Source of the DNA: an uncultured Burkholderiales bacterium
GTDB taxonomy: Bacteria > Pseudomonadota > Gammaproteobacteria > Burkholderiales > Burkholderiaceae_C
Assembly (NCBI GenBank): GCA_903820745.1
Contig: CAIJIT010000283.1
Span: forward strand, 1-57,830
Length of the DNA: 57,830 nt
Direction of reading: 5' to 3'
In this document: one piece after another, positions 8,687 to 57,375 of the stretch
How the letters are laid out: every line of letters starts with the position of its first letter
Position numbering within the stretch: position 1 is the first letter of the stretch
The notes under the pieces: generated by a model
The model's input: the letters and a program-made list of their open reading frames with translations, nothing else
Told to the model about the DNA's origin: nothing
The model's database searches: none
Made by a program: the position numbers and the translations under genes

Positions 8687-8711
8687 GACCGGTAAACCGC
8701 CATCAGTAAAG

Positions 8712-41178: not shown

Positions 41179-41224
41179 GCCCATCGCCAACTCCCGTAAA
41201 AAGGCGGCCTGTCGTGGCCAACGG

Positions 41225-41941
41225 TCAGCCCGGAACGCCCTTGGGCAGGACCCGTTCCAGAGCACGAATCTTTTGCCACAGTACGGCCCGCGGCATCGGC
41301 ATGCCCATTGCCTGCATGCAGCGATCGAGCCGCCCTTGCCGGTTCTTCAGCTGCTCGATGGCCTTGCCTAGATCCCGCAGCACCGAATCACCATAGGCAG
41401 ACTCGGCCTTCGCAATCGCCCGCCTGAGCAGATCAAGCTTCGGTGCCATCATCGCAAGGTCAATCACATCGCGACTGAACACTCCGTCGTCGGCCCACCG
41501 GTCTGAGTTGGCAAGCAGCTTGCTCGTGGCCAGGTCCATTGGGGTGAGTGTGGCGATGCCGCAAACAAGGTCGGCGGCGGTGGGCGGCGCCAGCGCGATA
41601 CGGCCTTCCAGCACGATTTCAAACTTGATCTGCTGCTGCTCGACCTCGAGCATCGTGCGCAGGCCGTATTGATCCGCTCGAAGTTCCCGTACCTGCTTGA
41701 GCACCCTACCGGCGCGGGTCACAGCGGACAAACCTTTCGCACCCATGAGCGCCTGGCGCAGCCGGCCATAGGCGGCGACATCGGAAACCAGAAAGTCGAT
41801 GTCCACCGATTCCCGATACTCGCCATAGCGCAACGCAATCGCGGTGCCGCCGCCGAACAGGCAGTTGTTGTCGCGCAGCACCTGGCCGTCGAGCGCCTCA
41901 AGTACCTTTGCAAGCTTCAAATGGTGGGGCCGTTCAAACAT
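41225..41941 (-). CDS. AbiEii/MenT-type nucleotidyltransferase toxin
   Basis: A 238-residue nucleotidyltransferase of the AbiEii family. The core LFGGGTAIALRYGEYRESVD then IDFLVSD contains GGTxlal and SxDiDF. The basic helix PMDLATSKLLANSDRW and the DVIDLAMM region are the other conserved blocks. Such toxins add nucleotides to tRNA or other targets and stop growth during phage infection. The ATG at 41941 overlaps the stop of the upstream XRE gene by eight bases, as in other type IV or tandem antitoxin-toxin pairs. Confidence 0.9.
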   Translation of the reverse strand: MFERPHHLKLAKVLEALDGQVLRDNNCLFGGGTAIALRYGEYRESVDIDFLVSDVAAYGRLRQALMGAKGLSAVTRAGRVLKQVRELRADQYGLRTMLEVEQQQIKFEIVLEGRIALAPPTAADLVCGIATLTPMDLATSKLLANSDRWADDGVFSRDVIDLAMMAPKLDLLRRAIAKAESAYGDSVLRDLGKAIEQLKNRQGRLDRCMQAMGMPMPRAVLWQKIRALERVLPKGVPG

Positions 41942-42434
41942 CAATCCGGCCCTTGTCACCGGCCTCGCGCAAGGCGTCGATCAACCGCAGCTCGGGCGGT
42001 TCGATTGCATTTTGGTCAAGATGACGCCAGTTGCGCTCGTAGATGCCGAGGGCTTCGGCCGGAGTCAGCTCGTCGATTCCGTGCACCTGCCAGGCGAGCT
42101 GTTTGAGTTGTGGATAGTCGGCCAGCCGGATATGGGCCGGGAGCTGCATTTGCACAGCCGGCGCCAGGGCCTTGGTGGCGGTATCCACGGGTGAGATGCC
42201 GAGTTCGAGTCCCAGCGCTGCTGCGGCATTCATATAAGCCCCCATCGTCACCGACGCCTCGCCGCCCTCGATTCTGTGCAGCGTCATGCGCGACATGCCG
42301 GCGGCCTGCGCAGCACTCGTGGCACTGACCCGCAGGAGCTTGCGATGGGCCCGAATCTGCTGGCCAAGCGCGCGAAGTTTCGCGCTCGCAGATTCGGCGC
42401 TGGCCGAAGTATCTTGATTCAATTTGTCTCTCAT
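41934..42434 (-). CDS. XRE-family antitoxin/repressor paired with the AbiEii-type toxin
   Basis: A 166-residue protein with a Cro/CI helix-turn-helix (SATSAAQAAGMSRMTLHRIE near residues 37-56) and a long C-terminal domain (LADYPQLKQLAWQVHGIDEL, then TPAEALGIYERNWRHLD) found with nucleotidyltransferase toxins. It starts at ATG 42434 (MRDKLNQDTS); a TTG at 42461 would add nine residues that repeat KLNQ. It overlaps its own direct-repeat operator, which suggests autoregulation. Confidence 0.88.
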   Translation of the reverse strand: MRDKLNQDTSASAESASAKLRALGQQIRAHRKLLRVSATSAAQAAGMSRMTLHRIEGGEASVTMGAYMNAAAALGLELGISPVDTATKALAPAVQMQLPAHIRLADYPQLKQLAWQVHGIDELTPAEALGIYERNWRHLDQNAIEPPELRLIDALREAGDKGRIDV

Positions 42435-42446
42435 TTGATTCAATTT
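42414..42446. promoter_or_regulatory. Direct repeats TTGATTCAATTT, candidate XRE operator
   Basis: Two perfect 12-base copies (42414-42425 and 42435-42446) are spaced 21 bases start to start, two helical turns. Each contains the 9-base palindrome TTGATTCAA. GTCTCT (42426-42431) and AGAGAC (42466-42471) are an outer inverted repeat. They cover the start of the XRE gene. Confidence 0.65.
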
Positions 42447-42696
42447 CGTGAAATTGTACAAAGTAAGAGACAGTATTTCAAATTCAATGGCGCCAACTCA
42501 CAGTCGGCCTGCCCTGTCGAAGGGTTCGGCCCATCGCAGGCCAGCCTTTGACGGCAACAAGATCCTCAATGTCAAACTGTCCGGGCAGGATGCGAACGAG
42601 ACCGAAAAAATACTGGTCTACAAACGCTGCGAGTTGACAGTGAACGGCAGCCGTTCCGCCACGCGGCCCGGCAGGAAGTTTCCGGGCGATGCTGAA

Positions 42697-43761
42697 TCAC
42701 AGCCCGGCCGCGGCTCGCGGCGACTTCCAGACCTGACGCGCTAAGCGCATCAGATTCCCGCCAAGAACAGCCTGGATGTCCGCGTCCTGGTAGCCCCAGT
42801 TCATCAGAATCTGCACGATCCCCTCCAGTTGCTCTGGCGCGACCATCAGAACGCCCTTCTGGTAGCCGAGTTCGGCGGGAAAGATGTTGCCCATTTTCTC
42901 CAGGTAGTCATCCAGTTCCTGGGTATCAAACACATAGTCCAGACCCAGCGCCACATGCTGAGGTCCGACCAGTTGAACCACATGGTCGACATGGCGCGCG
43001 AAGGTTTCGCTGCTGTTGTCGTTGTTGCCCAGAAAGTTGCCGATACCGTTGATGCCCACGACACCGCCGGTGTTGGCGCAGGCACGTATCAGGTCGTCGG
43101 GAATGTTGCGCCCGTGCGCATGGAGCGCACTCGGATTGCTGTGGGAAAAAATCACCGGTCGGGTTGCCACCGCGAACACATCGCGGACCGTACGGTGGCC
43201 GGTATGGCTGCAGCACACCAGCATGCCGACCCGCTCCATCTCGGCGATCACCACGCGGCCAAAGTCCGTCAGGCCCTTGTCATCATCCTGGCAGCCGCCC
43301 CCGACCCGGTTGTTGTTGTTGTAGGCCAGCAGCATCCAGCGTACGCCCAGGTCGTAGTAGAGCTGTACCAGACTGGGTTGGTCGGCAAGCGCATTTGCGC
43401 CTTCGATGTCAAAACCCACAGCCAAGCGCCCGGTAGCGCGTGCCAGCTCAATATCGTCCGCGCTTTCGATCAGCAGGTAGTCCTGGGGCCGCTGCTTGAT
43501 CCAGTGACGCATGCCCGCCAAGGTGCGGATGTGATCTTCGATGCCCATCTCACCAAAGCCAACATTGAGCATCACTGCATCGACGCCGGCCGCCCGATAG
43601 CGCTGAAGCTGCGGCAGGAACGATGCGTCATGGGCGCGCATGACAGGCATGCAGCCATGGTTGTCCCAGACCAGGCTGTCGCGCAGCAGCGCGCGCGCGT
43701 CGCCTGAGGTCGCAGCCATGACCGATGTCAAGCGTGAATCGTTGGAATTGTTCGGTGGCAT
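42697..43761 (-). CDS. Membrane-dipeptidase-family (M19) hydrolase with altered metal site
   Basis: A 354-residue renal-dipeptidase-like enzyme that would cleave dipeptides, including D-amino-acid or dehydro dipeptides. Motifs are WDNHGCMPV at 32-40, FDIEGANAL with E120, CCSHTGHRT with H186, IFSHSNPSALHAHGRNIPDD with H207, and LGLDYVFDT with D275. The usual DxHxD has D33 and H35 but Cys37 in place of the second aspartate. No signal peptide is seen, so it is probably cytoplasmic. It is divergent from the AraC regulator by 99 bases between starts and is likely part of the same peptide-utilisation locus. Confidence 0.9.
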   Translation of the reverse strand: MPPNNSNDSRLTSVMAATSGDARALLRDSLVWDNHGCMPVMRAHDASFLPQLQRYRAAGVDAVMLNVGFGEMGIEDHIRTLAGMRHWIKQRPQDYLLIESADDIELARATGRLAVGFDIEGANALADQPSLVQLYYDLGVRWMLLAYNNNNRVGGGCQDDDKGLTDFGRVVIAEMERVGMLVCCSHTGHRTVRDVFAVATRPVIFSHSNPSALHAHGRNIPDDLIRACANTGGVVGINGIGNFLGNNDNSSETFARHVDHVVQLVGPQHVALGLDYVFDTQELDDYLEKMGNIFPAELGYQKGVLMVAPEQLEGIVQILMNWGYQDADIQAVLGGNLMRLARQVWKSPRAAAGL

Positions 43762-43860
43762 ATCATTTGCTGGCAGGCATGCATCATGGGCAAGACCTTA
43801 GACGAAGCCATGTCCGCTTGCATTAGGCCGGGCCAACTATTATTTAGGAGCAACGACCGC

Positions 43861-44913
43861 ATGACGCTTGCACCCACCGAAAAACAGCCATCGCCGAATG
43901 AAACATGGTCGCCGCTCGACTTCGACCGGGAATCGTTTCGCGTGTCCACAGTTGAAGGCTCGTTCAAACGTTTTGCTCGCAACGGGGTGCGCACCTTCCA
44001 CCATGTGGTGGGCGGCAGGGGCATCGCCGACACGGTGCGCTTTGACGATGGTGTACTGCTCACGGTCGTCAATTGCGTACTTCCCCTGATGGCCCGATGG
44101 CGCTATGACAACGATGAGCCGCTGATCATGCTGCGCGCCTCCCTGAGTTGCGAGGTTGCGTACCACTATGACGGCATCGCGCCGATCATTTTCAACCGAC
44201 CCGAAGTCACCCTCGCTTGCCTGCCCGCCGGTCAGAATTTGAGCGTTGATGTTATCGGCGGGGCCCGGCAGCAAGGCTTGATCGCCCTGTTTCGGGCATC
44301 AAGCTTTGCCGCCCGCTACGGGCTGCAGCCCGATGACCTGCCACCCGAAATGCGCGATGCGTTCACCGGCAATCGACCGGTAGGACGGATCGCCTCGTTC
44401 CCGCTGGACCAGCACATTGCCGGCCTGGTGGCAGATACCATCGACAGCCGGCTCGATGGCGAAATGCGGGTGGTGCAGTACGCGGGGCGCTTGGCCGAGT
44501 TGGTGGCCTACACGATCGACGCGATGCAGCACACGCCTTCATCGCGCGGCGGTGCTCTGCATCTGCGCCGCGATGTCCAACTGGCCCAAGCCGCGCTCAA
44601 TCGCCTGCAAAAGGATTATCGAAGACCGCCGCTATTCGCTGAACTGGCGAAGGACGTCGGGACCAACCAGAACAAGCTCAAGGCGGTCTTCAAGGAAGCC
44701 TTCGGCCTGACCATGGCCGAGTACTGCCTGGAGCGGCGCATGCGCGAAGCACAGTTGCTGTTGATGGAGGCAACGCTGACCATCGCGCAAGTCGCCGATC
44801 GCGTCGGCTACGAACACCAAAGCAGCTTTGCAGCGGCCTTTCGAGGTCATGTCGGCATGTCAGCGCGCGAATATCGACAGCATCGCGCGCCGTTCAGCCA
44901 GACTTTGGAGTGA
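43861..44913 (+). CDS. AraC-family transcriptional regulator
   Basis: A 350-residue regulator. The C-terminal double HTH reads PPLFAELAKDVGTNQNKLKAV and LTIAQVADRVGYEHQSSFAA followed by FRGHVGMSAREYRQHR. The N-terminal 200 residues are an AraC-type effector/dimerisation domain. I used the ATG at 43861 with AGGAG upstream; an ATG at 43786 lacks one. Placed between the dipeptidase and the TonB receptor, it is the obvious regulator of both; the effector is probably the substrate or an early breakdown product (inference). Confidence 0.9.
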   Translation: MTLAPTEKQPSPNETWSPLDFDRESFRVSTVEGSFKRFARNGVRTFHHVVGGRGIADTVRFDDGVLLTVVNCVLPLMARWRYDNDEPLIMLRASLSCEVAYHYDGIAPIIFNRPEVTLACLPAGQNLSVDVIGGARQQGLIALFRASSFAARYGLQPDDLPPEMRDAFTGNRPVGRIASFPLDQHIAGLVADTIDSRLDGEMRVVQYAGRLAELVAYTIDAMQHTPSSRGGALHLRRDVQLAQAALNRLQKDYRRPPLFAELAKDVGTNQNKLKAVFKEAFGLTMAEYCLERRMREAQLLLMEATLTIAQVADRVGYEHQSSFAAAFRGHVGMSAREYRQHRAPFSQTLE

Positions 44914-44941
44914 GCAACCGGCGTTACTTCCAAACCAGATA

Positions 44942-44976
44942 AGGGTTCACCCGCAGAAAGGAGGCGTGAGGGTTCA
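44942..44976. promoter_or_regulatory. Direct repeats AGGGTTCA upstream of the TonB receptor gene
   Basis: AGGGTTCA occurs at 44942-44949 and 44969-44976, 27 bases apart in the same orientation. Direct half-sites are typical of AraC-family activators, although usually about 21 bases apart. They lie 150-180 bases before the receptor start, just after the regulator gene. Confidence 0.45.
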
Positions 44977-45125
44977 TAGTCGGTACGATCGCCTAAATTT
45001 TCGGTGCAAGTGCAAATGCGCTCGGTATTGGGCTTCCGATATCGTTTGACCGTTCGATCCGGAGCCCTTCTTTTGGAGCCGGCGATCAGTCACTCATGTC
45101 AGCCTACTTGAGAAGGAACCGCAAA

Positions 45126-47288
45126 ATGACGACCCGCATGATTTTCAGCCTCCATAGTCTTGAGGGCGCGCGGCCCAAAGTCATCATTCAAGCGTTGCTG
45201 GTTGCAGGGTTGATCTCGGCCTTGCCAGCGGTCGCGCAGCAACAAGCGACCGAAGCTGAGACGGTCCTGCCAAAGGTGGTCATCACCGCCAACAAGCGGG
45301 TCGAGAGCCAGCGCGAAGTCGCGGGCACAGTGTCAGTGCTGCAGGGCAGCGACCTCGAGCAGCGCGGGGCAAGCAGTCAGGAAGATGCCCTCAGGCTGAC
45401 TCCCGGCGTTCAATTGACCAAAGGCGAAACTTCATTCAATGACATCACCATCCGGGGCCTGGGCACGGGTGGCTGCTCGGTATGCGGCAATCTGCTGCAG
45501 GGTACGACGGGCGTGTATCTGCAAGATGTTCCCCTCACAGACCCGATCGGCAAGTTGGCGGTGCCGGACATTCAGCTTTTTGATGTTGAGCGCCTAGAAG
45601 TGCTTCGCGGACCGCAGGGTGCCTTGTATGGATCGTCGTCGCTGGGTGGCGCATTGCGGTACGTCCTGGCACAGCCAAACCTGAAATCCTTCGAAGCCAG
45701 CGTGCAGGGTGGCATCAGCACCGTCGCCCATGGCAGTTCCGGTTTTTCACTGTACAGCATGGTCAACGCCCCCGTTTCCGATGGTGTTGCCGCCATTCGA
45801 GCCGTGGCCTTCGACCGCAAGGATGGCGGCTATCTCGACAACATGGGTACTGGCAAGAAAGACGCCAACGAGGCGCGCCAGCGGGGCGGTCGCGTTCTCG
45901 CCAAAATTCAGCCGACCAAGGCATTCGCCGCCACCTTGACGGTCATGACCCAGACATCGGAACAAGATGACGGCTTCAGCATCGTCCCTGATCCCGCCAA
46001 GCTGGAGCACAACACCCCCTCCGCGTCGCCTCGCACGCAGAAGTTCGACTTCGCGAATCTTGAGATGACCTACGACTTGGGTGGCCATGTCCTGACATCG
46101 ATAACCGGAAGATGGAAGAAGTCGCGCGATCAGACATGGGACAACACGCCGCTATTCAAGTCCTTCGGGATTCCCTTCCCGTTCACGCGTGTCTATGCGA
46201 ACCAGGTCGGACAGGCCTCGGCGACGTCCCAGGAGTTCAGGGTCGCCAACAAGCCAGGCGGCGCGCTCAGCTACCTGTTTGGTGTCTTTGAGCAGAGTGT
46301 CGACTCGAGCAGCACCTTGCGCGCGCGCGGCGAGGGAACGCCCGGACCCTATCTGGACAGCGACCAAGCCAGCCACGAAGCGGCCAAGGAACGTGCGGTC
46401 TTCTTCGATGGCGAATATGACCTGGGCAGTGGCTGGGGCGTCGGACTGGGTGGTCGTCTCTATCGAACCAGCAGCAATTTGGGTGGCCAATCTGGCGGCG
46501 TCGCGGTACCAGACCTCAATTCAGAGGCAAGTGGCAGCACCCCAAAGGCCTCGATCAAGTACCGCTTTGGTGAGAATTTGTGGTACGCCAGTACTGCCAA
46601 GGGCTATCGATTCGGCGGCCGCAACCCACCCCCTACCAACTTGCCATACAGCTCGGATTCGGTCTGGAACTACGAGACCGGTGTTCGCATGACGCCGGCC
46701 AAGGGACTATTGGTCGACGTGAGCCTCTTCTATCTCGATTGGGACAAGGCGCAGTTTTCCTATCTCGACATGAGTGGTCCGCTGCCGACCTCGGTGACTG
46801 GCAACGTCGGCAAAGCCCGCAACGTCGGTCTCGAAGGATCGCTGCAGTACCGGGTCAACGCAAGATTCGACCTGCTGGCTGTTTTCGCCTACACCGACGC
46901 GAAGACGACCCGGGACGTGACCGGACCATCCGGACTGATCGCATCGGGTTCGCGCCTTCCGAATACGCCAAAGCTGCAGACCTCCGTGCAAGCCAACGCG
47001 CGCTTTGAAGGTCCCATGGGGAGTGCTGGCAAGATGTACGTCACGCACTCGCACGTTGGGGACCGCGTCCTGAACATCGACGGTTCGGCCAAGGTCGGTG
47101 GCTACAACACGGTCGATCTGGGTCTGAGCCTCTCGCGCGGCCAGTACAACCTGCTGGTCAATCTGGCCAACGCGATGGATGGCAGAGGCGTGCTGAGTAA
47201 TATCCCGAGCGTTCCCGGCGCGGTCTATTCCGAAGTCTTCACCCAGAAGCCGCGCACGCTCAGCGTTTCGCTGCGCTACGATTATTGA
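45126..47288 (+). CDS. TonB-dependent outer-membrane receptor
   Basis: A 720-residue receptor for active import across the outer membrane. The signal peptide ends near LISALPAVAQ. The plug carries VVITANKRVESQREVAGTVS (TonB box region) and ALRLTPGVQL with TIRGLGTGG. The GVYLQDVPLTDP, RVLEVLRGPQGALYGSSSLGG-type block and C-terminal aromatic residue (LSVSLRYDY) are all typical. A Cys pair (GGCSVCGN) in the plug is less usual. GAAGGA precedes the ATG at 45126; a start at 45096 is possible. It opens the transport/degradation operon. Fold family resembles siderophore-type receptors, but context suggests a peptide-like substrate. Confidence 0.93.
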   Translation: MTTRMIFSLHSLEGARPKVIIQALLVAGLISALPAVAQQQATEAETVLPKVVITANKRVESQREVAGTVSVLQGSDLEQRGASSQEDALRLTPGVQLTKGETSFNDITIRGLGTGGCSVCGNLLQGTTGVYLQDVPLTDPIGKLAVPDIQLFDVERLEVLRGPQGALYGSSSLGGALRYVLAQPNLKSFEASVQGGISTVAHGSSGFSLYSMVNAPVSDGVAAIRAVAFDRKDGGYLDNMGTGKKDANEARQRGGRVLAKIQPTKAFAATLTVMTQTSEQDDGFSIVPDPAKLEHNTPSASPRTQKFDFANLEMTYDLGGHVLTSITGRWKKSRDQTWDNTPLFKSFGIPFPFTRVYANQVGQASATSQEFRVANKPGGALSYLFGVFEQSVDSSSTLRARGEGTPGPYLDSDQASHEAAKERAVFFDGEYDLGSGWGVGLGGRLYRTSSNLGGQSGGVAVPDLNSEASGSTPKASIKYRFGENLWYASTAKGYRFGGRNPPPTNLPYSSDSVWNYETGVRMTPAKGLLVDVSLFYLDWDKAQFSYLDMSGPLPTSVTGNVGKARNVGLEGSLQYRVNARFDLLAVFAYTDAKTTRDVTGPSGLIASGSRLPNTPKLQTSVQANARFEGPMGSAGKMYVTHSHVGDRVLNIDGSAKVGGYNTVDLGLSLSRGQYNLLVNLANAMDGRGVLSNIPSVPGAVYSEVFTQKPRTLSVSLRYDY

Positions 47289-47374
47289 ACAATGACTGTT
47301 ACCTTCATGCGGAGCCACCGACGGGGAATGCGCCGCAGCAACGATCTGACGGTTGGCCCCCGGCCCAGACTCTC

Positions 47375-48607
47375 ATGAGCGAGGCGCCGAACCTGGATTC
47401 CCGCGCCAGCTGGCGGGTACTCATCGGCTGCTGTGTGCTCGCTTCCGTGAGCATGTCGTCGCTGTTCGGATCGACCTTTGGCCTCTTCATGCGCCCGTTG
47501 GAGGAAGAGCTGCGATGGACGCGCTCCGAGATCGCGTTCTCGTTGACGATACTGATGCTGCTATCGCCATTCATCGCTCCGGCGACGGGATGGGTCATCG
47601 ACCATGTGCGTCTGCGCTCACTTGTGCTGTGGGGCGTGGTGCTGCAGTCCGCAAACCTCATGGCATTTGCCCTGCTGGGAGGAGAAGTGTGGGTCTACTA
47701 CCTCACTTGTGGCGCGATGTTGATCACCGGCGCGGGCGCTTCCTTGCTGGCACTTTCAAAGGTGGTTCAGAGTTGGTTCGACAAGTCACTGGGCCGTGCG
47801 CTGGGCATCCTGTTCGCCTGCGCAGCTGGCGGTGCCATCGTGCACCCCATGCTGGTTCAGGCGCTGATCGAACATGTGGGCTGGCGTGGCGCGCTGCTGG
47901 CGATGGGCGGTCTAAGCCTGTTGTTCGGCGGCCTGGCAGCCTGGTGGACCGTGGACGAACGGCCGTCCGGTGTGCCGCCGGTCGTAGCTCCCGCCAGTAC
48001 GCCGCCCATCTTGCCGCGCCCTGCCTCGTGGCTCGCGACCTTCGCCAGGAGCCGGGCGTGGTGGGTTCTATCATTTTGGAACATGTTGTTTGCATTTGGC
48101 GCAGGATCGATCGGTATTCACCTCGCTGCCTTGCTGCAGGATCGCGGCGCGACCCCAGCACTAAGCGCGATGGCCTTGAGTCTGATGGGCGCGGGCGCGC
48201 TGATCGGCAACCTGGCTGCGGGTTGGCTGATCGACCGCACCTCGGCCCGCAGGTTGGCAGGCCTTGTGATGCTGCTGCCTATGTCCGCAGCACTGCTCCT
48301 GTACGTCGGAGCCGGTTACGAATTTGCAATACTTGCTGCGGTGGCCCTGGGTCTGAGCACAGGCACCGACGGCAGCTTGTGCGCCTTCCTGGCCCAGCGC
48401 TTCTTTGGATCATCGCTATTTGGGCGTGCCAGTGCCACGCAAATGGTTGCCGCTTCACTGGGTGGCGGCCTGTCGCCTTGGCTGTCCGGGCTGCTTCGCG
48501 ACAGCTCAGGCAGCTACCAGCTCTCCTTGCTGATGGCTGCAGCAGCATTCGGCCTTGCCGCTGCGAGCGCGATCTGGCTGCCGGACCCCCAGCGGTCGAC
48601 CGACTGA
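47375..48607 (+). CDS. MFS transporter
   Basis: A 410-residue major facilitator with twelve hydrophobic segments. The loop 2-3 motif is WVIDHVRLRS, and FGLFMRPLEEELRWTRSEIA near residues 34-53 is the oxalate/formate-antiporter-like signature seen in MFS carboxylate transporters. It follows the TonB receptor by 86 bases, so it likely moves the imported compound or its fragments across the inner membrane. The ATG at 47375 was selected as the first with correct topology. The substrate is not predictable. Confidence 0.9.
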   Translation: MSEAPNLDSRASWRVLIGCCVLASVSMSSLFGSTFGLFMRPLEEELRWTRSEIAFSLTILMLLSPFIAPATGWVIDHVRLRSLVLWGVVLQSANLMAFALLGGEVWVYYLTCGAMLITGAGASLLALSKVVQSWFDKSLGRALGILFACAAGGAIVHPMLVQALIEHVGWRGALLAMGGLSLLFGGLAAWWTVDERPSGVPPVVAPASTPPILPRPASWLATFARSRAWWVLSFWNMLFAFGAGSIGIHLAALLQDRGATPALSAMALSLMGAGALIGNLAAGWLIDRTSARRLAGLVMLLPMSAALLLYVGAGYEFAILAAVALGLSTGTDGSLCAFLAQRFFGSSLFGRASATQMVAASLGGGLSPWLSGLLRDSSGSYQLSLLMAAAAFGLAAASAIWLPDPQRSTD

Positions 48608-48637
48608 TCCGCGGATCCACTCTTGCACACCCCGCGC

Positions 48638-49819
48638 ATGAAGACGACCGGCCTGCAGTACGGCCTGCATCGTTTCCTCAGCCAGGAGTGGTCAGGACTG
48701 GTCATAGCAGCGATGTTCGTTATCGTTGGGCTATCGGCGCAAACTGCGTTCCCGCAGTCCTGGCAACCACCACTGACGGTGTGCGTGATGACCCTCGGCG
48801 GGCTATTGAGTTTGGGCGCAATGCGCCACTGGCTGAACACCGTGCGCATGCACCGAAGACACCCAGCACCCGGGCTCATGGTCGACATGGGCGGCTGGCG
48901 GATGCACATGCTGGCCGAAGGCGAGGCGCAAGGTCGGCCCACTGTGGTCTGGTTTCCCGGTGGCCACGCCGGCGGCCATGCACTGCATCACCTGCACTTG
49001 GCGATGCGCAACGAGACACGATCGATCCTGCTCGACCGGGCCGGTAGCGGCTGGAGTGAAGCAGGTCCTTTCCCGCGCAGCACGGCTCGCGAAGCCGAAG
49101 AGGCTTGGTGTTGCCTGGAAAGGGCCGGCGAACGCGGTCCCTTCATCCTCGTTGGTCACTCGTTGGGCGGGCTGCTGGCCGCCAATATGGCCCGCCGACG
49201 TCGCAAGCAAGTGTGTGCGCTGGTACTGCTCGACGCCACGCCGCTCGACACGATTGTCTATGGGCCGCCCATGATGGGAATCGCGAGCCTGCAAAGGCAG
49301 GCCCTGCTCAACGGTCTGCTGGCCCTGTTCGGCATCTACCGAAATACGCCGGAACGGGCTGCGCGCGGCAATCCCGAAATCGCCGAACTCGAGCGCGTGG
49401 TCCGCAAGGCCCTGGGCCCGGCGGCGAGTATTTTGCGTGACATCGAAACGAATGCTCGCGCCCATTTCGCCTACGCCTCGGTCTATAGCGAGCACTCTCC
49501 AACGGGCTTGCCAGGCTCAGCTTGGCAGACCGTGGTCTATGACGGCGACCTGGGTGACCTGCCAGTATGGGTGGTGGCGCCGGGAGATCACGCCGAAACA
49601 GCATCGCTGCCGACAGGCTTGGCGGCCGATGCAGCCGACGCGGCGCGGATGCACCGCTTCTACCGCCGCAACCGAGAACGCTATCTTGCCACCTCGACCC
49701 AATCACATCGTGTCGATGTGCCCGCGGGTTGCGGGCACAACTTTCCATACGAGGCGCCGGAGTTCGTCATCGATCTGGTGCGTGGTGTCTTGCAGAGCAG
49801 TTCGCGCTGCGCTGGGTGA
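48638..49819 (+). CDS. Membrane-anchored alpha/beta hydrolase
   Basis: A 393-residue protein with two N-terminal hydrophobic helices (GLVIAAMFVIVGLSA and PPLTVCVMTLGGLLSLG). These are followed by an alpha/beta hydrolase domain: oxyanion VVWFPGGHAGGH, nucleophile elbow LVGHSLGGLLAA, acid near VWVVAPGDHAE and final CGHNFPYEAPE. The catalytic domain would face the cytoplasm or periplasm near the membrane. It sits 30 bases after the MFS gene and 14 before the DUF885 gene. A TTG at 48623 is the only longer start. It may cleave an ester or amide in the imported compound. Confidence 0.87.
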   Translation: MKTTGLQYGLHRFLSQEWSGLVIAAMFVIVGLSAQTAFPQSWQPPLTVCVMTLGGLLSLGAMRHWLNTVRMHRRHPAPGLMVDMGGWRMHMLAEGEAQGRPTVVWFPGGHAGGHALHHLHLAMRNETRSILLDRAGSGWSEAGPFPRSTAREAEEAWCCLERAGERGPFILVGHSLGGLLAANMARRRRKQVCALVLLDATPLDTIVYGPPMMGIASLQRQALLNGLLALFGIYRNTPERAARGNPEIAELERVVRKALGPAASILRDIETNARAHFAYASVYSEHSPTGLPGSAWQTVVYDGDLGDLPVWVVAPGDHAETASLPTGLAADAADAARMHRFYRRNRERYLATSTQSHRVDVPAGCGHNFPYEAPEFVIDLVRGVLQSSSRCAG

Positions 49820-49833
49820 TCCGAGAGAACAAC

Positions 49834-51549
49834 ATGGCAAATGAAGAGAAGAGTCGAGCCTTGGCCGACATGGCGAATCGCTTCTGGCAGTTCGAGTGCC
49901 GTCAATGGCCGCTGACTGCTGCGCTGGCCGGGGAGATCCTGGACGACACCGTGTTGTTCCGCGAAGCCGCGAGCGATCATGACCAGCGATATGTCGAGGC
50001 CGGCCAGATGCTTCAGGAACTTGCCGGCATCTGCAGCGACGAAATGAACCCCCAGGACCGGGCCACCTACCGCCTTCTGCAGCGGGAGCTCCATGGAATC
50101 CGCCGCTACCACGACGTGGACGGACATCTTCGACCGTCGCTGTTTCCCGCCGGAATCGACTTCACCACAGTGTTTTTCGCCAACTCGACGAGCATCGACG
50201 ATGCCGCTACCGCGCGGCGCTATCTGGCGCGGCTGGAGTCCATACCCGGTGCGATAAAGGACATTCAAGCCAATCTGATGGCAGGTCACCGCAAGGGCAT
50301 CCGTTATCCACGCATCGTGCTCGACAGCGCAGTGTCCAACATCGAGGGCCTGACCCAGGGGCCGGCCCAAGCCACTGCCTGGTACGGCCCGTTTCAGCGG
50401 TGGACGGCTGCGGATGGCGCTGGGCAGGCGCTCGGGCATCGGGCACTGGCATTCATTGCCGACACGTTGGTGCCGGCATTTCAGGCCCATGCTGCGTTCT
50501 TGCACGGCCCGCTGGCAATGGGTGCGCTAAGTGGTCTGGCATGTACCGATGGCCCCAAGGGCCGCGACTTCTATCGAATGCTCGTTCAGCACTTCACCAC
50601 CATCGATGTCGAGCCCGAAGCTTTGCACGCGTTGGGCCTTCGAGAGGTCGAACGGTTGCAGTCTGAAATCGAGGATCTGGCTGCCAAGGCCGGCTTTGCC
50701 GACGATGTGACCGGCTATCGCCGGTTCCTGTCCACCGACCCCCAGTTTGTTGCCGAGTCGAAGGATGCGTTGCGAGCAGACATCGAGCGCCTGTGCAAGC
50801 GGATCGACAAATGCATCCCGGCCTTCTTTGGCCGCATTCCACGCATCACCTACGGTGTTGAAAGCATCCCGGAGACCATCTCCGCAAAGGTGCCGGGAGC
50901 CTATGCCCAGCCCAACCCAGCCGATCGCAGCGCACCCGGCATCATCTGGGTCAGCGGCATACCAGCCAAATGTCCGAGCTATCTGCATGTACCGCTGGCG
51001 CTGCACGAGGGGTGGCCTGGCCATCTCATGCACATTGCCTTGATGCAGGAGGCCGATAGTTTGCCAAGCTTCCGCAGACACGGCGCCATCAAGTACACAG
51101 CTTATGTCGAGGGCTGGGCCCTTTATTGCGAGAGCCTTGGCGTGGAAATGGGTTTGTACGAAACAACCCACCAGCACTATGGCCGCGTCGAGATGGAGCA
51201 ATGGCGTGCCGTGCGCCTGGTTGTGGACACCGGCATTCATTGGTACGGTTGGTCACGCGAAGCTGCCATCGCCTACATGGCGGCGCGTCTGACACTTTCG
51301 CGCGAGTCGATCGAAGGCGAGGTCGATCGTTACGCAGCGATGCCTGCCCAGGCGTTGGCTTACCAGATCGGCAATCTCAAGATGCGGGAGTTGCGACAGC
51401 ATGCACAGCAGACACTCGGCCCTCGCTTCAAGCACCGAAGGTTCCACGAGGCGGTGATGTGCGCGGGCGCGGTGACTTTGCCGGTCCTTGAAGAACTCAT
51501 CGAAGACTGGTTGACGAGCGAACAGTCTTTCGAAGCGGAGCGAAGCTGA
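49834..51549 (+). CDS. DUF885-family metallopeptidase
   Basis: A 571-residue DUF885 protein. Members are zinc peptidases with a HExxxGH-type site. Here LHEGWPGHLMH places H391, E392 and H397, and AYVEGWALYCESL near residue 425 supplies the downstream glutamate. ITYGVESIPETISAKVPGAY and GIIWVSGIP are family blocks. No signal peptide, so cytoplasmic. Its stop overlaps the M81 gene start by one base (TGATG). Role: probably carboxy- or dipeptidyl cleavage of peptide fragments. Confidence 0.92.
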   Translation: MANEEKSRALADMANRFWQFECRQWPLTAALAGEILDDTVLFREAASDHDQRYVEAGQMLQELAGICSDEMNPQDRATYRLLQRELHGIRRYHDVDGHLRPSLFPAGIDFTTVFFANSTSIDDAATARRYLARLESIPGAIKDIQANLMAGHRKGIRYPRIVLDSAVSNIEGLTQGPAQATAWYGPFQRWTAADGAGQALGHRALAFIADTLVPAFQAHAAFLHGPLAMGALSGLACTDGPKGRDFYRMLVQHFTTIDVEPEALHALGLREVERLQSEIEDLAAKAGFADDVTGYRRFLSTDPQFVAESKDALRADIERLCKRIDKCIPAFFGRIPRITYGVESIPETISAKVPGAYAQPNPADRSAPGIIWVSGIPAKCPSYLHVPLALHEGWPGHLMHIALMQEADSLPSFRRHGAIKYTAYVEGWALYCESLGVEMGLYETTHQHYGRVEMEQWRAVRLVVDTGIHWYGWSREAAIAYMAARLTLSRESIEGEVDRYAAMPAQALAYQIGNLKMRELRQHAQQTLGPRFKHRRFHEAVMCAGAVTLPVLEELIEDWLTSEQSFEAERS

Positions 51550-53054
51550 TGCGCATTTTCATCTCGTCCCTCTACACCGAGACGAATACCCTCTCGCCGA
51601 TCCCGACCGGGTTGCGTGCATTCGAAGAGTACGGTCTGATCCGCGATGCTTCGATGCGGCAGGATGTCCCCGCGTCAGTACCACTCGGCGAAATCAGGCG
51701 CCTGGCCCAGGCTTGCGGTGACGAGATCATCGAGGGACTCTCCGCGAGCGCTCAGCCGGCCGGAAAGACTGTGCGTGCCGTCTATGAAAAGTTGCGCGAC
51801 TCGATTCTTGTCGACCTGCGCGCTGCGCAGGCCGCCGCCCCCCTGAACATGATCCTGTTGGCACTGCACGGGGCCATGGTGGCTGACGGATACGACGACT
51901 GCGAAGGGGATCTCATCGCCCGAGCGCGAGCGATTGCACCGGACGCCGTCATAGGGATCGAGCTCGACCTTCATTGCCACCTGACTGACGCCATGGTGCG
52001 CGAAGCCGACGTGATCATCGCGGTCAAGGAGTACCCGCATATCGACATGGCCGAGCGTGCCAACGAACTGTTCCACATCTGCCGAAGAACCGCCCTCGGC
52101 GAAGTCAATCCGGTGGCCGCGCTGGTGGACACCCACATGATCGGCGCATATCCCACGTTCGATGCGCCGATGTCTGGGATCGTCGCCAATCTTCGGGCGG
52201 TGGAAACCCGGGCTTCCATCCTCACGGCAACCATCGCGCACGGGTTTGCATGGGCCGATGTGGCTGAAGTCGGCACAAAGGTACTCGTCTACGCCGACAC
52301 CGACCTGCGCGGGGCGGTGCGTGAAGCCGTGGCTCTGTCCCAGCAGATCTACGACACACGCGAGGAACTTCTGCCGCGTTATCCGGACATTGCGACGTCA
52401 CTGGATCGAGCCACGGCCTTGCCCGGACTTGTCGTGCTGGGTGACTTCGCGGACAACCCGGGTGGCGGTGCCCCAGGCGACAGCACGTATTTCCTGCGCG
52501 AGTTGCTGGCGCGGGGGATACGAGATGCCGTAGTCGGTTGCTTCTGGGACCCGATGGTGGTCGAACTCTGCGCAGAAGCAGGCATTGGTGCGACGCTGAC
52601 GATTCGACTCGGCGGCAAGTGCGGGGTCACCTCGGGTGAACCGATCGACTTGACTGTGCAGGTACTGGGTCTGCGCGAGCAACATGATCAAGGCTGCTTC
52701 GGATTCCGGCAGAAACTCGGCCGGGCCGTCTGGATCAGAAGCCAAGGGATCGACATTGCAGTCTGTTCGGCTCGATCACAGGTCTTCGATCCCGATGCTT
52801 TCACGGGCTTGGGAATCGCTTTGGCGGATAAGCGCCTCATCGTCGTGAAGTCATCGGCACATTACCAGGCCAGATTCAGCGAGATTGCCGACCATCTCTG
52901 GCATGTGCGGACGCCTGGCGCGATGTCGCTCGATTTCGCGGCCATTCCATATTCGAAGCGCGACGGACAGTACTTCCCGCGCGTCCAGGATCCATGGGCA
53001 TTGCACGGTCAACCCGAACCGCGGACCTTTGTTCGTCGGCGGGCCTTGGCTTGA
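51549..53054 (+). CDS. M81-family metallopeptidase (MlrC-like)
   Basis: A 501-residue M81 (DUF1485/MlrC) peptidase. Signatures are SSLYTETNTLSPIPT at the N-terminus, LALHGAMVADGYDDCEGD (H107), IELDLHCHLTDAMV (H142, H144) and EYPHIDMAERA (H164). The second half has LGDFADNPGGGAPGDSTYFL. MlrC completes microcystin and nodularin breakdown by cleaving the Adda-containing tetrapeptide. MlrC itself is about 528 residues, and this length is close. The gene is translationally coupled to the DUF885 gene. M81 members are also found outside toxin degradation, so the substrate remains open. Confidence 0.93.
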   Translation: MRIFISSLYTETNTLSPIPTGLRAFEEYGLIRDASMRQDVPASVPLGEIRRLAQACGDEIIEGLSASAQPAGKTVRAVYEKLRDSILVDLRAAQAAAPLNMILLALHGAMVADGYDDCEGDLIARARAIAPDAVIGIELDLHCHLTDAMVREADVIIAVKEYPHIDMAERANELFHICRRTALGEVNPVAALVDTHMIGAYPTFDAPMSGIVANLRAVETRASILTATIAHGFAWADVAEVGTKVLVYADTDLRGAVREAVALSQQIYDTREELLPRYPDIATSLDRATALPGLVVLGDFADNPGGGAPGDSTYFLRELLARGIRDAVVGCFWDPMVVELCAEAGIGATLTIRLGGKCGVTSGEPIDLTVQVLGLREQHDQGCFGFRQKLGRAVWIRSQGIDIAVCSARSQVFDPDAFTGLGIALADKRLIVVKSSAHYQARFSEIADHLWHVRTPGAMSLDFAAIPYSKRDGQYFPRVQDPWALHGQPEPRTFVRRRALA

Positions 53055-53095
53055 ACGCGACTCGCTTCGGCAGCGGCCCGAGTCCGGATGTTTAG

Positions 53096-54583
53096 ATGAG
53101 CCGCCAGATGCCCAACCGGCCGCCGCCGCGCCCGCTCGACCTGCTGGATGTTCGTTTGCGCCCTATTTGCGATGCCTACTTGGGAACAAGGCAGGTTCCC
53201 GGTGCATCGATCGCTGTTGTGCATGGCGACATGAGCTATCACTATGCCTATGGAGTGAAGTCCACCGTCAGCGCCGAGCCGGTGACTGCGCAGACGGGAT
53301 TCAACATTGCATCTTGCTCCAAGGCCTTTGTGTCAGCGGCCGTGGCCTCCCTGGTTGCTGACAGGCTGGCGAGTTGGGACGACCCGATAAGCCGTTTCGT
53401 ACCAGAGTGGCAATTGCAGGATCCAGCCGATACGCTGAAGGTTACCCTGCGCGATCTCAGCGCCAACCGCTTGGGCTTGCCCCGGGTCGGTCTGATGGAG
53501 GCTGGACTTGATCCGCGCCTGCCGGCGGAACATGTTTTTTCGAGGCTTCGCCATACGGCCGCCGTTCACGCGCTGCGCGAACGCTTTACATACATCAACG
53601 CCGGGCACAACGCGAACGCTGTGGCGGTCGGACGCATCACGGGTCAGGGGTTTATCGACACCCTGAGAGACCGCATCCTGCAACCCTTGGGCATGAGCAC
53701 CAGCTCGGGCGGCGAGCAGGCGCGCACGGCATTGGCCGATCAAGCCGCGTGGCACTGTCGCGTTGGTGGGAATATTGTGCCGATCGATAGCATTTTTACG
53801 GACCAGCAAACCGGTGCCGGTGGCATGGTGGTTTCCGGCGCCGACGCGTTGCAGTGGTTGCGCTTTCACCTCAACGGCGGATTGGTGGATGGTCGACAAG
53901 TCATTTCTCGCGAAGCCTTGCTCGAAACCCACAAGCCACAGGTCGTTGCTGAGCCTGGCAAGGATCTGCCGAGCCTGTTCTATCCAGGCGCTCACATGGC
54001 CGCATATGCGCTCGGCTGGGCAGTTTCGGACTTCGAAGGCCGTCCCCTGATCTGTCACTCTGGCACCGGCTACGGCGTCGCCGCCATGACCTTGCTGCTG
54101 CCGGGTGCGGGGCTGGGCATCGCCGTGTACGCCAACGTTCTGGGTGCACCGGTGACATCACTGTCCTTTGCTCTTGCAGCCGCCGTGCTGGGTCTGCCCG
54201 TACGTGACTGGCGGGCTTACTTCGAATCCTTCGCTCCAGCTCCGCCGGCAATGCCGGTGGCCAAGCCATCGCCTGCGAGTACCGAAGAGACTATCGATCT
54301 GGACTCCTACGTCGGTACCTATGTCCACGCTGCGGACGGCCCGCTGGTTGTCGAACGAGTGGGCGACGGACTGTCAGGGAGCCTGAGACATGGTTATCGG
54401 ATGAACTTCTCGCTGCTGCCCATCGGCTCAAACAGTTTCTCAGTGAAGTTCAGCCAACCTGAGTGGCGGGCTTTGATGGACAACGAGCGCACCGTGCTGA
54501 ATTTCAAGGTCGTCGGTGGGGCCAGCGTTGCGGCCCAACTTGACGCAGGGCTGTTGACCCGGGAGTTCGAGCGTCGTGTTTGA
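53096..54583 (+). CDS. Class C beta-lactamase-like serine hydrolase (MlrB-like context)
   Basis: A 495-residue S12-family hydrolase. The SxxK motif is S73-C-S-K76 (NIASCSKAF), YxN is Y166-I-N168, and a HSG triad lies in LICHSGTGYG. A C-terminal DUF3471-like beta domain follows (LDSYVGTYVHAADGPLVVER). No signal peptide is visible, so it acts in the cytoplasm, unlike most beta-lactamases. MlrB, the second microcystin enzyme, is of this family and size (about 540). Forty-one bases from the M81 gene, it ends the operon. It could be a D-aminopeptidase or amidase. Confidence 0.9.
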   Translation: MSRQMPNRPPPRPLDLLDVRLRPICDAYLGTRQVPGASIAVVHGDMSYHYAYGVKSTVSAEPVTAQTGFNIASCSKAFVSAAVASLVADRLASWDDPISRFVPEWQLQDPADTLKVTLRDLSANRLGLPRVGLMEAGLDPRLPAEHVFSRLRHTAAVHALRERFTYINAGHNANAVAVGRITGQGFIDTLRDRILQPLGMSTSSGGEQARTALADQAAWHCRVGGNIVPIDSIFTDQQTGAGGMVVSGADALQWLRFHLNGGLVDGRQVISREALLETHKPQVVAEPGKDLPSLFYPGAHMAAYALGWAVSDFEGRPLICHSGTGYGVAAMTLLLPGAGLGIAVYANVLGAPVTSLSFALAAAVLGLPVRDWRAYFESFAPAPPAMPVAKPSPASTEETIDLDSYVGTYVHAADGPLVVERVGDGLSGSLRHGYRMNFSLLPIGSNSFSVKFSQPEWRALMDNERTVLNFKVVGGASVAAQLDAGLLTREFERRV

Positions 54584-54719: not shown

Positions 54720-54812
54720 ATGAAACTGCGCACCCGCTACTCCGCCCTTGACCTGCTGGGTGCTGCCCGCAATGGCCAGGCCGACTGGGCGCCGGCCTGG
54801 CGAGATGCCGGG
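54720..54812 (+). pseudogene. soxB 5' fragment
   Basis: From the ATG at 54720 the frame reads MKLRTRYSALDLLGAARNGQ followed by [10 protein letters not shown]. It aligns to the start of the real soxB at 57.6 kb ([20 protein letters not shown] then PAWRDA) and then loses similarity before the FAD-binding region. Only the first 30 codons remain. Confidence 0.8.
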
Positions 54813-54862
54813 TCAAGGCCGCCAATTGGCGCCGCTGAACCACAACTCTTGTAGCGGCGGGC

Positions 54863-55077
54863 ATGAGCGGCTTCATCCAGAACGCCTGGAATGTCGCCGC
54901 CTGGGACCTGACGGTCGCTTTCGCGGCAGATGGCGGCATCGTCGCGGCCCAGCAGAAAATCTCGACCTCGAACCTTCGGTCAAAATGATGCCAGTGGTCG
55001 CCGACCTGCCGCTGACCCAGTTCCGGGGCGTCGTTCAAGTCGCGCTGGAGCTGGAATGTCCCGAGCTGAAAACCTGA
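54863..55077 (+). pseudogene. Decayed Rieske aromatic oxygenase (VanA-like) gene
   Basis: The start MSGFIQNAWNVAAWD is the typical N-terminus of VanA-type oxygenases (xxFxxNAWYVAAW). It runs straight into LTVAFAADGGIVAAQQ, which resembles the C-terminal region, so the Rieske and catalytic centre are deleted. After AAQQ a one-base deletion in an A-run (about 54952-54959) shifts the frame, and the proper sequence continues as NLDLEPSVKMMPVVADLPLT to a stop at 55077. Confidence 0.72.
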
Positions 55078-55089
55078 GGATCGATCCAT

Positions 55090-57375
55090 ATGCTTGAAAT
55101 ACCTGCACCCAAGCTGATGCATTCCCCGGCCCCGACGTTCTGGCGCAGGCTTGCCCCTCTCGCTGCATTGCTGTTGAGCTTGGTCGGTGCGGCCGGTGCA
55201 GCCAACACAATGGATCGGATCGACTTGCCGCAGGCAAGGTTTTCCACCGGCGACAACATGGCTTGGCGAGAGCCGGATTTCGACGACAGTGGCTGGAAGT
55301 TGCTCAACACCACGCAAGCTTACGAAGGCCAGGGCTACGAGGGTTACGACGGCTACTCCTGGTATCGCATCCATGTCGTGATCCCCTCGGCGCTCAAGCT
55401 CAGCACCGACTGGCCCGAGCGGCTGAGGGTCTACCTTTCGGCCATCGACGATGCCGACGAAACTTATCTAAACGGCGTGCGTATCGGAGCGACCGGGCGT
55501 ATGCCCAGCGACCCGCTGGGCTATGAGACCCGCTGGGATTCGCCTCGCGACTATGCGGTGGACCTGCGCTCAGGCCTGGTTCGCTGGGATCGCGACAACG
55601 TGATCGCAGTGCGCGTTTACGACGGCGGCGGTGGCGGTGGTTTTTACAAGGACATGCCCTATCTGGCCATGCCGCACAGGGTTGACGGCCTGCAACTGGA
55701 TGCGGGCCAGGCCCGCTACCACTTTCTTGCAGATGGGCGCGTACAGGCCAGGCTGGACTTGCGCAACAACTACCCGGTGCTGCAGCGTGGCGTGTTGCAA
55801 ACCGAGGTGTTCGACCTGGTCTCCGGAAGGGTATTGGAGTCGGGCAAGCGCTCGATCACCATCGCGGCCGAGAAAAGTCTGGACCTGCAATGGATCTGGC
55901 CGGCGCGTCCGGGTATCCAGGTCCGCTATCGTTTTGTGGACGCGAGGTCTGGCCGCATCGCAACAGCCACCCATGACCTGCCCTACAGACTCACACCCCC
56001 CGATGCGCCCACGCCCGCCCTTCATGGCGCGCAACTGCTCGGCATGCGCCCCGGCACGCCGCTGCACTACAGAATTGCCGCAACCGGTCGCCTGCCACTG
56101 CACTTCAGCGCCCAGGGTCTGCCAGAGGGATTGAAGCTGAACCCGCTCAGCGGCGTCATCAGCGGTACAACGCCCGCCGCAGGCAGTTACAAGGTTCAAC
56201 TGCAAGTGCGCAATGCCCTGGGCAGTACGAAGCGGGTTTGGACCTTGGTGGCGGGCGAGCAACTCGCCTTGACGCCGCCGATGGGCTGGAACAGCTGGAA
56301 CGCCTACGGTTTGAACGTCACCGACGAGCTGGTGCGCAAGGCCGCGCAGTTTCTGATCGACAAAGGGCTGGCAGCCAAAGGCTGGAACTCGGTCAATATC
56401 GACGATGGCTGGGAGGCGCCGGAACGCCGTGCCGATGGCGAAATGATGGGCAACGCGCGCTTTCCCGACATGAAAGCATTGGGTGATTTCCTGCACGAGC
56501 GGGGCTTGCACTTTGGCATTTATTCGTCTCCCGGTGCGACCACCTGTGGCGGCTATCTGGGTTCACTCGGCCATGAGTTCCAGGACGCAGCAAGCTATGC
56601 CCGCTGGGGAGTGGACTACCTCAAATATGACCTCTGCAGCTACGCGGCGAACATGTCCAAAACTCCGACGCTGGACGAGCACCGGAAACCTTATCAGTTG
56701 ATGGGCGAAGCAATATCCAGGCAGCCGCGCAGCATGGTCTACAGCCTTTGCCAGTATGGCGAGCAACAGGTCTGGACCTGGGGTGCATCGGTCGGCGGAG
56801 TGGCATGGCGCATGACAGGTGACATCGCCGACAACTGGAACAGCGTGCTGGAAACCGGTTTTTCGCAGGCGCCGCATACCCGCTTTGTGGCGCCCGGGCG
56901 TTGGAACGACCCTGACATGCTGGTCGTGGGGCAGTTGGGATGGGGCGATAAGCTGCGTCCGTCGCGTCTGACACCCGACGAGCAATACAGCCACATCAGC
57001 CTGTGGAGCCTGCTGGCGGCGCCGCTGCTGCTGGGCAACGACCTGCCAAATCTGGACGAGTTCACGCTCAGCCTACTCACCAACCACGAAGTCATTGCGA
57101 TCAACCAGGATGCGCTGGGCAAGGCGGCGCAGCGGGTACTGAACCAGGACGACTGGCAGGTCTGGGTCAAGGAACTGGAAGGCGGCGCCAAAGCGGTGGG
57201 CATCTTCAATATGGGCTCGAGCTTCCGCTCGACCCGAATCGAATCAAACCGCATGGGGCTCGAGAACCGATTCCAGTTGCGTGATGCCTGGCGCCAAAAG
57301 GACTTGGGGCTTCAGTCGAAGCACATCAGCGTGAACTTGCCGGCTCACGGCGTGATGCTCTTTGTCGTCAAGTAG
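55090..57375 (+). CDS. Exported GH27 alpha-galactosidase-like glycosidase with N-terminal beta domains
   Basis: A 761-residue enzyme with a signal peptide (WRRLAPLAALLLSLVGAAGA). The N-terminal 38-225 is a galactose-binding-like sandwich (WREPDFDDSGWKLLNTTQ, YSWYRIHVVI, YLNGVRIGATG). Residues about 300-385 form an Ig/putative He-PIG domain (LPEGLKLNPLSGVISGTTPA). The GH27 barrel starts at PPMGWNSWNAYG (about 393). The nucleophile is D514 (DYLKYDLCSY) and the acid/base is D578 (WRMTGDIADNW). It would release alpha-galactosyl or alpha-N-acetylgalactosaminyl ends in the periplasm or outside. GAGGA precedes the ATG. It is flanked by soxB-like sequence on both sides. Confidence 0.94.
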   Translation: MLEIPAPKLMHSPAPTFWRRLAPLAALLLSLVGAAGAANTMDRIDLPQARFSTGDNMAWREPDFDDSGWKLLNTTQAYEGQGYEGYDGYSWYRIHVVIPSALKLSTDWPERLRVYLSAIDDADETYLNGVRIGATGRMPSDPLGYETRWDSPRDYAVDLRSGLVRWDRDNVIAVRVYDGGGGGGFYKDMPYLAMPHRVDGLQLDAGQARYHFLADGRVQARLDLRNNYPVLQRGVLQTEVFDLVSGRVLESGKRSITIAAEKSLDLQWIWPARPGIQVRYRFVDARSGRIATATHDLPYRLTPPDAPTPALHGAQLLGMRPGTPLHYRIAATGRLPLHFSAQGLPEGLKLNPLSGVISGTTPAAGSYKVQLQVRNALGSTKRVWTLVAGEQLALTPPMGWNSWNAYGLNVTDELVRKAAQFLIDKGLAAKGWNSVNIDDGWEAPERRADGEMMGNARFPDMKALGDFLHERGLHFGIYSSPGATTCGGYLGSLGHEFQDAASYARWGVDYLKYDLCSYAANMSKTPTLDEHRKPYQLMGEAISRQPRSMVYSLCQYGEQQVWTWGASVGGVAWRMTGDIADNWNSVLETGFSQAPHTRFVAPGRWNDPDMLVVGQLGWGDKLRPSRLTPDEQYSHISLWSLLAAPLLLGNDLPNLDEFTLSLLTNHEVIAINQDALGKAAQRVLNQDDWQVWVKELEGGAKAVGIFNMGSSFRSTRIESNRMGLENRFQLRDAWRQKDLGLQSKHISVNLPAHGVMLFVVK

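Follow-up and report, generated by a model that had tools for sequence, protein, structure and literature searches.

Among described systems, the closest to the locus studied here is the mlr cluster of sphingomonads for microcystin degradation, in which an M81 metallopeptidase (MlrC), an S12 serine hydrolase (MlrB) and an MFS transporter (MlrD) stand in one locus with MlrA. The available text of PMC12474180 describes MlrA as a 36-kDa protein with eight helices, MlrB as predicted to be periplasmic (signal peptide at 95.2%), and MlrD as containing PTR2. Microcystins are also degraded outside this system: as far as the available part of PMC8068134 goes, Paucibacter toxinivorans 2C20 breaks them down and has no mlr genes, anabaenopeptins were among the peptides tested with this species, and the enzymes were unidentified, for which the authors urged omics. 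We analyzed a stretch of 57,830 nucleotides from an uncultured Burkholderiales bacterium (GCA_903820745.1, contig CAIJIT010000283.1; hereafter the window, meaning this whole stretch), which carries a run of genes for an M19 dipeptidase, an AraC-family regulator, a TonB-dependent receptor, an MFS transporter, a membrane-anchored alpha/beta hydrolase (ABH), a DUF885 metallopeptidase, an M81 metallopeptidase and an S12 serine hydrolase (Table 1). Like the mlr cluster, this run combines an M81 enzyme that has these zinc ligands with an S12 enzyme and an MFS transporter, but it is without MlrA, an exported MlrB and a PTR2-type MlrD, and it adds the receptor, AraC, ABH, DUF885 and M19 genes. With moderate confidence, we propose that it is an operon under AraC control through which a small peptide that otherwise resists breakdown is taken up and hydrolyzed in the cytoplasm.

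The window spans the entire contig C283 of a 5.1-Mb genome in 357 contigs, and the host bacterium is probably freshwater. Pfam analysis of 17 window proteins (10 + 7) confirmed each of the eight families named in the first-pass annotation, and the intergenic gaps it had listed from the receptor gene onward (86, 30, 14, -1 and 41 bases) were exact with the gene starts in Table 1. It had counted four hydrolases in addition to M81 and S12, whereas the run has three (M19, ABH and DUF885). Between 42.6 and 55.2 kb, no sigma-70-like site was found (2.7 expected), and terminator-like sites numbered 6 against 9.3 expected; the run may be read as a single transcript.

The operon is conserved in other genomes. 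The M81-alignment search of genome contigs, which kept the 80 best among at least 551 confirmed relatives, included two near-identical operons in metagenome-assembled genomes (MAGs) of uncultured beta-proteobacteria, L064 and L065. The run is complete gene for gene in L064 from M19 through S12 (identities: M19 73%, AraC 64%, receptor 84%, MFS 80%, ABH 80%, DUF885 88%, M81 89% and S12 86%), and partial in L065, where it starts at a truncated MFS gene and ends at S12 (75–87% identity). The NG86 ratio of nonsynonymous to synonymous substitution rates (dN/dS) against L064 and L065 was 0.08–0.22 in the 11 scorable comparisons out of 13, indicating that the operon genes are kept by selection; AraC/L064 and ABH/L065 were unscored because of a stop within the aligned stretch. 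Overall, 3 of 24 comparisons were not computed for this reason, and the ratio was undefined for three L156 genes with saturated dS. L064 also carries, at its positions 1–1243, an additional DUF885 gene beside M19 (47% identical to the operon's own), with none at that place in the window.

The operon was rare in wider searches, in which at most four ABH or three S12 candidates were scored per genome in the order and the phylum, so weak or hidden copies could escape. At E ≤ 1e-25, ABH was present in 3 of 399 order genomes and 2 of 18 genus genomes (own genome included in both), in 2 of 28 genomes of a second family, and in the own genome only among 398 phylum genomes. The S12 gene at E ≤ 1e-60 was confined to the own genome among 399 order genomes, with two copies there. 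The other ABH carriers, G336, G306 and G542, have the same order M19-AraC-receptor-MFS-ABH-DUF885, with 47–58% identity from the receptor onward; G542 belongs to the genus of the window, and its M19 gene is cut by the contig start, leaving the first 25 residues. The core is found in two families. In all three carriers the core is accompanied by the same 18-base upstream sequence and has sox genes close by, but an alpha/beta hydrolase (ABH2, 257–271 residues) and an M3 peptidase (both identified by Pfam in G306) stand where M81 and S12 are in the window, and a nitroreductase gene is linked. The conserved core is therefore M19-AraC-receptor-MFS-ABH-DUF885 together with the upstream sequence, and the end enzymes are an exchangeable module. 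An mlr-like pathway centered on M81 and S12 was considered as the core and rejected, because both genes are replaced in these three carriers. The exchange of the end module fits a single uptake route adapted to peptide variants.

The end enzymes of the window were compared with the mlr proteins. The first-pass annotation had read the run as mlr-like without MlrA. Support was found for a conserved locus that takes up and degrades peptides and has a TonB receptor, a regulator and both M81 and S12 peptidases, but not for closeness to mlr. No MlrA-type CPBP membrane protease was detected in the run by Pfam, in agreement with that annotation, and two Rce1-like proteins, 222 and 145 residues long, are encoded on other contigs of the same genome. 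The M81 protein is not an MlrC orthologue: it is 39.6% identical to MlrC (BLAST rank 50 of 120 rows, MlrC itself counted), its score of 336.6 bits is well below the model cut-off of 999, and in a quick tree, where MlrC is a long row, it lies inside a starred 34-row clade that excludes MlrC. In the 7YLQ alignment, the MlrC zinc ligands E39, D167, H169 and H191 (the last given once as H196 in the source paper) correspond to M81 E11, D140, H142 and H164, and MlrC H133 to H107; the ligand positions are invariant in 10 of 10 sequences. MlrC N41 is retained as N13, and the four MlrC substrate residues E70, W59, F67 and F96 are changed to P41, I31, D39 and S67 in the alignment as read by hand. The S12 protein has the SxxK, YxN and H/K-x-G motifs (SCSK with S73, YIN, and HSG at 321), but by hydropathy it shows no signal-like hydrophobic N-terminal stretch, whereas MlrB is predicted to be periplasmic. 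The window MFS protein matched MFS_1 alone at E ≤ 0.001 in Pfam and did not match PTR2. Searches of plasmid records for a true MlrC or a neighboring MlrB (280 records per search) returned just M81 genes of <60% identity. A closer MlrC relative within the same family is the M81 of L057 (positions 7543–8907, genome G062), which is 52% identical to MlrC, is starred with it in the tree and adjoins a TonB receptor gene.

Rather than in a housekeeping clade, the window M81 was found in one rich in receptor and S12 loci, since 23 of the 29 rows labelled as S12-plus-receptor loci fall in its 34-row clade. This statement describes the clade content, because a label shuffle gave the clustering no support (5 changes against a shuffled mean of 4.8, with 86 of 120 rows outside the test); the labels were hand-typed for 15 printed and 12 family loci, and some loci may be unlabelled. 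The window M81 was matched at E ≤ 1e-60 in 14 of 120 family genomes, own included, and both S12 and a receptor were present in 15 of the 29 family M81 regions compared, none longer than 20 kb.

The receptor is 84% identical to that of L064, 53% to that of G542 and 47% to those of L156 and L157. Its top NCBIfam model is TonB-siderophor, at 114.9 bits, and among PDB entries it matches the pesticin receptor best. Siderophore uptake is under the control of AraC regulators such as PchR and YbtA. These points would suit a system that imports and opens a foreign peptide siderophore, in which the receptor, MFS transporter, esterase and peptidases release iron and recycle amino acids. The model score is, however, below the TIGR01783 cut-off of 223.5, the receptor passed the cut-off of none of the siderophore models listed, and no ferric reductase or siderophore gene was present among the 17 window proteins, so that neither a siderophore-specific receptor nor an adjoining siderophore locus, which the first-pass annotation had named as grounds against its reading, was found. 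Five hydrolases would also exceed the need for opening a siderophore, and we regard this alternative as decidedly unlikely.

The MFS protein has eight non-overlapping hydrophobic stretches above the hydropathy threshold. ABH has two N-terminal helices, and its nucleophile S180 (in GHSLGG) and H372 (numbering from 48623) are invariant in 6 of 6 homologues; many esterases tied among the folds listed for the predicted model, so no specific activity is claimed for it. DUF885 (PF05960) passed the Pfam cut-off and the fold test, its fold is adjacent to the M32 and M3 peptidases, and its HE-x4-H motif with a distal E (H392, E393, H398 and E427; numbering from 49831) is invariant in 7 of 7 sequences. 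The nearest known systems for this protein are the DUF885 structures 3o0y, 3iuk and 3u24, and no function was visible in the literature found on the family. M19 is 73–77% identical in L064, L156 and L157. Its first metal motif is H-x-C (WDNHGC in 5 and WDNHAC in 1 of the 6 sequences read), at the position where renal dipeptidase has H-x-D.

The AraC protein is 94% identical to the same-genus copy in G542 and 64–68% to those of L064, L156 and L157; judged by eye, its true start may lie further in, near 43861. Upstream of the receptor gene, the 18-base sequence CGCCTAAATNTTCGGTGC was spotted in an alignment of five otherwise diverged core-locus upstream regions. It is exact in the window, and exact copies among 173 loci were found in L064, L156, L157, L160 and L162 (the window's own) and in no others. 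Because the pattern was derived from these same loci, its presence there is by construction; the informative points are that it persists in two families and is lacking from the rest of the 173 loci. Within three mismatches, the window has 3 matches against 0.18 expected, the other two, at 20901 and 25621, having three mismatches each. A locus not used in building the pattern, L072 (AraC, 56% identical, followed by receptor-MFS-S12-S12-M81), has a three-mismatch copy between its AraC and receptor genes, where 0.02 were expected and one was present in 4 of 200 shuffles. No copy within three mismatches occurs in L170, a second operon of the window's genome described below, or in L173. The AraC protein may bind CGCCTAAATNTTCGGTGC as its candidate site. 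L173 (G000:C143, 427–6680) holds a receptor gene 45% identical to the G542 receptor together with MFS, peptidase-like and TetR-like genes, as judged by eye.

In the proposed operon, the TonB receptor would bring the peptide across the outer membrane and the MFS transporter across the inner membrane. The membrane-anchored ABH would cut first, with an ester, a lactone or a terminal cap as its likeliest target; the linear product would then pass to DUF885, M81 and S12 for further cleavage, and M19 would act last, on dipeptides. The catalytic domains are predicted to be cytoplasmic because hydropathy gave no signal peptides and positive charges follow the second ABH helix, as read by eye; the ABH catalytic domain is thus probably cytoplasmic. 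The putative substrate would be a small capped or cyclic peptide, probably with D- or N-methyl residues. The first-pass annotation had proposed a complete pathway from import to amino acids for a cyclic, D-amino-acid-containing or capped peptide, and this reading stays a candidate. The adjoining sarcosine-oxidase genes hint at N-methyl residues, but soxB is multicopy in the genome of the window and in G542, so its nearness to the operon may mark a recombination site and not the pathway.

The DNA of the locus changes its closest relative inside the receptor gene. From 43.75 to approximately 45.3 kb, it is 82–97% identical to G542 per 100 bases (one bin at 79%) and 54–85% to L064, whereas from approximately 45.35 kb it is 52–70% identical to G542 but 78–95% to L064. 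The similarity to L064 ends at 54821, within a soxB remnant. Beyond it, a Rieske remnant matches the G542 5' end (93% over 60 bases) and the L036 3' end (83% over 145 bases), and the soxB piece at the right end of the window is 96–99% identical in protein to two G542 soxB copies and, in DNA, 95.6–97.5% identical to G542 against 80.9–83.0% to L064 and L065. These comparisons indicate, at the sequence level, that the operon body has been exchanged while the regulator in front of it is the resident one, and that this took place next to sarcosine-oxidase genes. A chimeric assembly joining two organisms, with no real operon swap, could produce a junction at 45.3 kb, and the assembly is in 357 contigs with 4.25% contamination. 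A simple chimera is argued against because the swapped stretch has genus-type sequence at either end, the AraC gene on the left and soxB on the right, so that two separate misjoins would be needed; in addition, the GC content hardly differs between the operon (62.0%) and positions 1–42.6 kb (61.9%). We consider a chimera highly unlikely.

Sarcosine-oxidase genes also stand near the related operons. In L064 and L065, soxB directly follows S12, and L065 also has soxA (by Pfam, the pair matches DAO, and SO_alpha_A3 plus GCV_T). G336 and G306 each have a convergent soxA <1 kb from the M3 gene with soxB adjoining it, and in G542 a soxB piece stands immediately after the operon.

Table 1. Coordinates of the operon, its candidate regulatory site, the ancestry junction and the right flank in the window
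Feature	Position	Strand	Remarks
M19 dipeptidase	42697..43761	-	Pfam E 1.2e-76; divergent; without signal-like N-terminus
AraC-family regulator	43786..44913	+	Pfam HTH_18
Conserved 18-base sequence CGCCTAAATNTTCGGTGC, candidate regulator site	44990..45007	+	88 bases before the receptor start codon
TonB-dependent outer-membrane receptor	45096..47288	+	Pfam Plug domain
Ancestry switch inside receptor gene, putative recombination junction	45296..45370		Change within 2–3 bins of 25 bases
MFS transporter	47375..48607	+	Pfam MFS_1
Membrane-anchored alpha/beta hydrolase (ABH)	48638..49819	+	Pfam Abhydrolase_6/1
DUF885 metallopeptidase	49834..51549	+	Pfam E 2.1e-126
M81 metallopeptidase	51549..53054	+	Pfam DUF1485 E 1.3e-75, MlrC_C E 2.6e-53
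S12 serine hydrolase	53096..54583	+	Pfam PF00144 E 4.2e-46
soxB 5'-end remnant (sarcosine oxidase beta)	54734..54821	+	82% over 88 positions to the start of the window's second soxB
Rieske (VanA-type) oxygenase remnant, 5' and 3' pieces	54849..55049	+	Matches G542 and L036
Alpha-galactosidase-like gene	55090..57375	+	Melibiase_2; between operon and soxB; not there in L064, L065
soxB 5' part, cut by contig end	57626..57830	+	81% to L065 SoxB

The genome of the window has four M81 genes by the Pfam model, and an S12 paralogue (58% identical) lies on G000:C100 beside another M81. The sister operon L170 (G000:C267, 1–15514) contains genes for M19, M20, a nitrilase-type hydrolase, a receptor, an aminotransferase, S12, DUF1611, MR_MLE, an esterase-like protein, M32 and an MFS transporter. 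It has soxB pieces at both contig ends, the right one identical over 84 bases to the 3' end of the window and the left one 95% over 310, and from these ends its contig may be the next after the window. Sox genes lie at the ends of contigs C283, C267 and also C67. We take its DUF1611 and MR_MLE genes to be the DgcN/DgcA pair for D-glutamate. M19 and S12 families include enzymes active on D-residues, and L170 joins both with a receptor and this pair, as might be expected if the operon served general salvage of short peptides, cell-wall peptides with D-residues included. Such salvage is hard to reconcile with the rarity of the core, seen in the few order and genus genomes that carry ABH, and seems quite unlikely to us. 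In the available text of PMC12363236, dgcN is named as the key gene for a pathway that racemises acidic D-amino acids, and DUF1611 is not named in that part. In another contig stretch, L036 (G000:C102, 1–15471), a receptor, an AmpG-like MFS protein (by eye), M81 and DAO adjoin a Rieske VanA-type oxygenase (DAO and Rieske by Pfam); L046 has a similar gene set.

Several gene families were enriched near M81 across the 80 loci, L064 and L065 being counted in the near set. S12 was found within 5 kb at 20 of 80 loci and at 5–10 kb at 6 of 80, corresponding to 28.5 and 9.9 per Mb of available sequence. The respective counts were 14 and 4 for receptors, 13 and 3 for MFS/POT, 22 and 5 for DAO/SoxB, 8 and 2 for MR_MLE, and 20 and 1 for SBP_bac_5, whereas no enrichment was seen for DUF885 (2 and 1), M19 (2 and 2) or ABH (3 and 2). 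Clusters of M81, S12 and a TonB receptor, often with an MFS gene, occur across Burkholderiales (L070, L075, L084, L090, L106, L120, L128, L140 and others). They place the same families side by side as the window does, and L072 also has the related AraC gene and near CGCCTAAATNTTCGGTGC match given above; however, the S12 proteins of the family loci are just 23–28% identical to that of the window, many clusters hold MR_MLE epimerase-like and DAO-type genes, and M19 (54%, L079), DUF885 (30%, L061) and short ABH matches (L039, L044, L084, L119 and L120) are exceptional there. No description of these clusters turned up in the literature searches, nor did a paper that combines four or more of the following: receptor, dipeptide epimerase, D-amino acid, peptidase and serine hydrolase.

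Outside these subjects, the window carries, directly left of the M19 gene (39919–42461), a HipA-like gene followed by an AbiEii nucleotidyltransferase and an HTH gene of toxin-antitoxin type. Pfam also identified a 1133-residue subtilase with P-domain, Calx-beta and RTX repeats (29645–33046) and a Fic-domain gene (36755–37396).

The substrate could belong to the freshwater cyanopeptides (cyanopeptolin, anabaenopeptin, microcystin or kin), degraded without mlr genes and with ABH replacing MlrA as the first cutter. The near-identical operon L064 belongs to a MAG whose isolate name is Loclat, which we take to be a Swiss lake, and a Paucibacter genome has M81/S12/receptor clusters (L084), in the genus of the mlr-less microcystin degrader P. 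toxinivorans (PMC8068134, available text). The Paucibacter stretch is, however, without the core of the window, and the core is also present in another family; we regard the cyanopeptide assignment as unlikely, and the L084 clusters as a lead, not evidence, for mlr-independent microcystin degradation. Returning to the operon for a resistant peptide, a broader and equally doubtful extension would make it a modular platform for resistant secondary-metabolite peptides, in which the regulator, its site, the dipeptidase and the core are fixed, bodies and end peptidases (M81 and S12 against ABH2 and M3) are exchanged between species by recombination near repeated sarcosine-oxidase genes, and ABH, by opening a ring or an ester, takes the role of MlrA, providing a genetic basis for mlr-independent cyanopeptide degradation.

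The present locus, together with the further M81 and peptide operons in its genome and the Burkholderiales M81/S12/receptor clusters, including those of Paucibacter, provides a short candidate list for mlr-independent degradation. The locus presents a peptide operon whose body appears to have been exchanged in one piece while the regulator stayed resident, both junctions being readable. It also points to a class of substrates for DUF885, whose structures have been solved.

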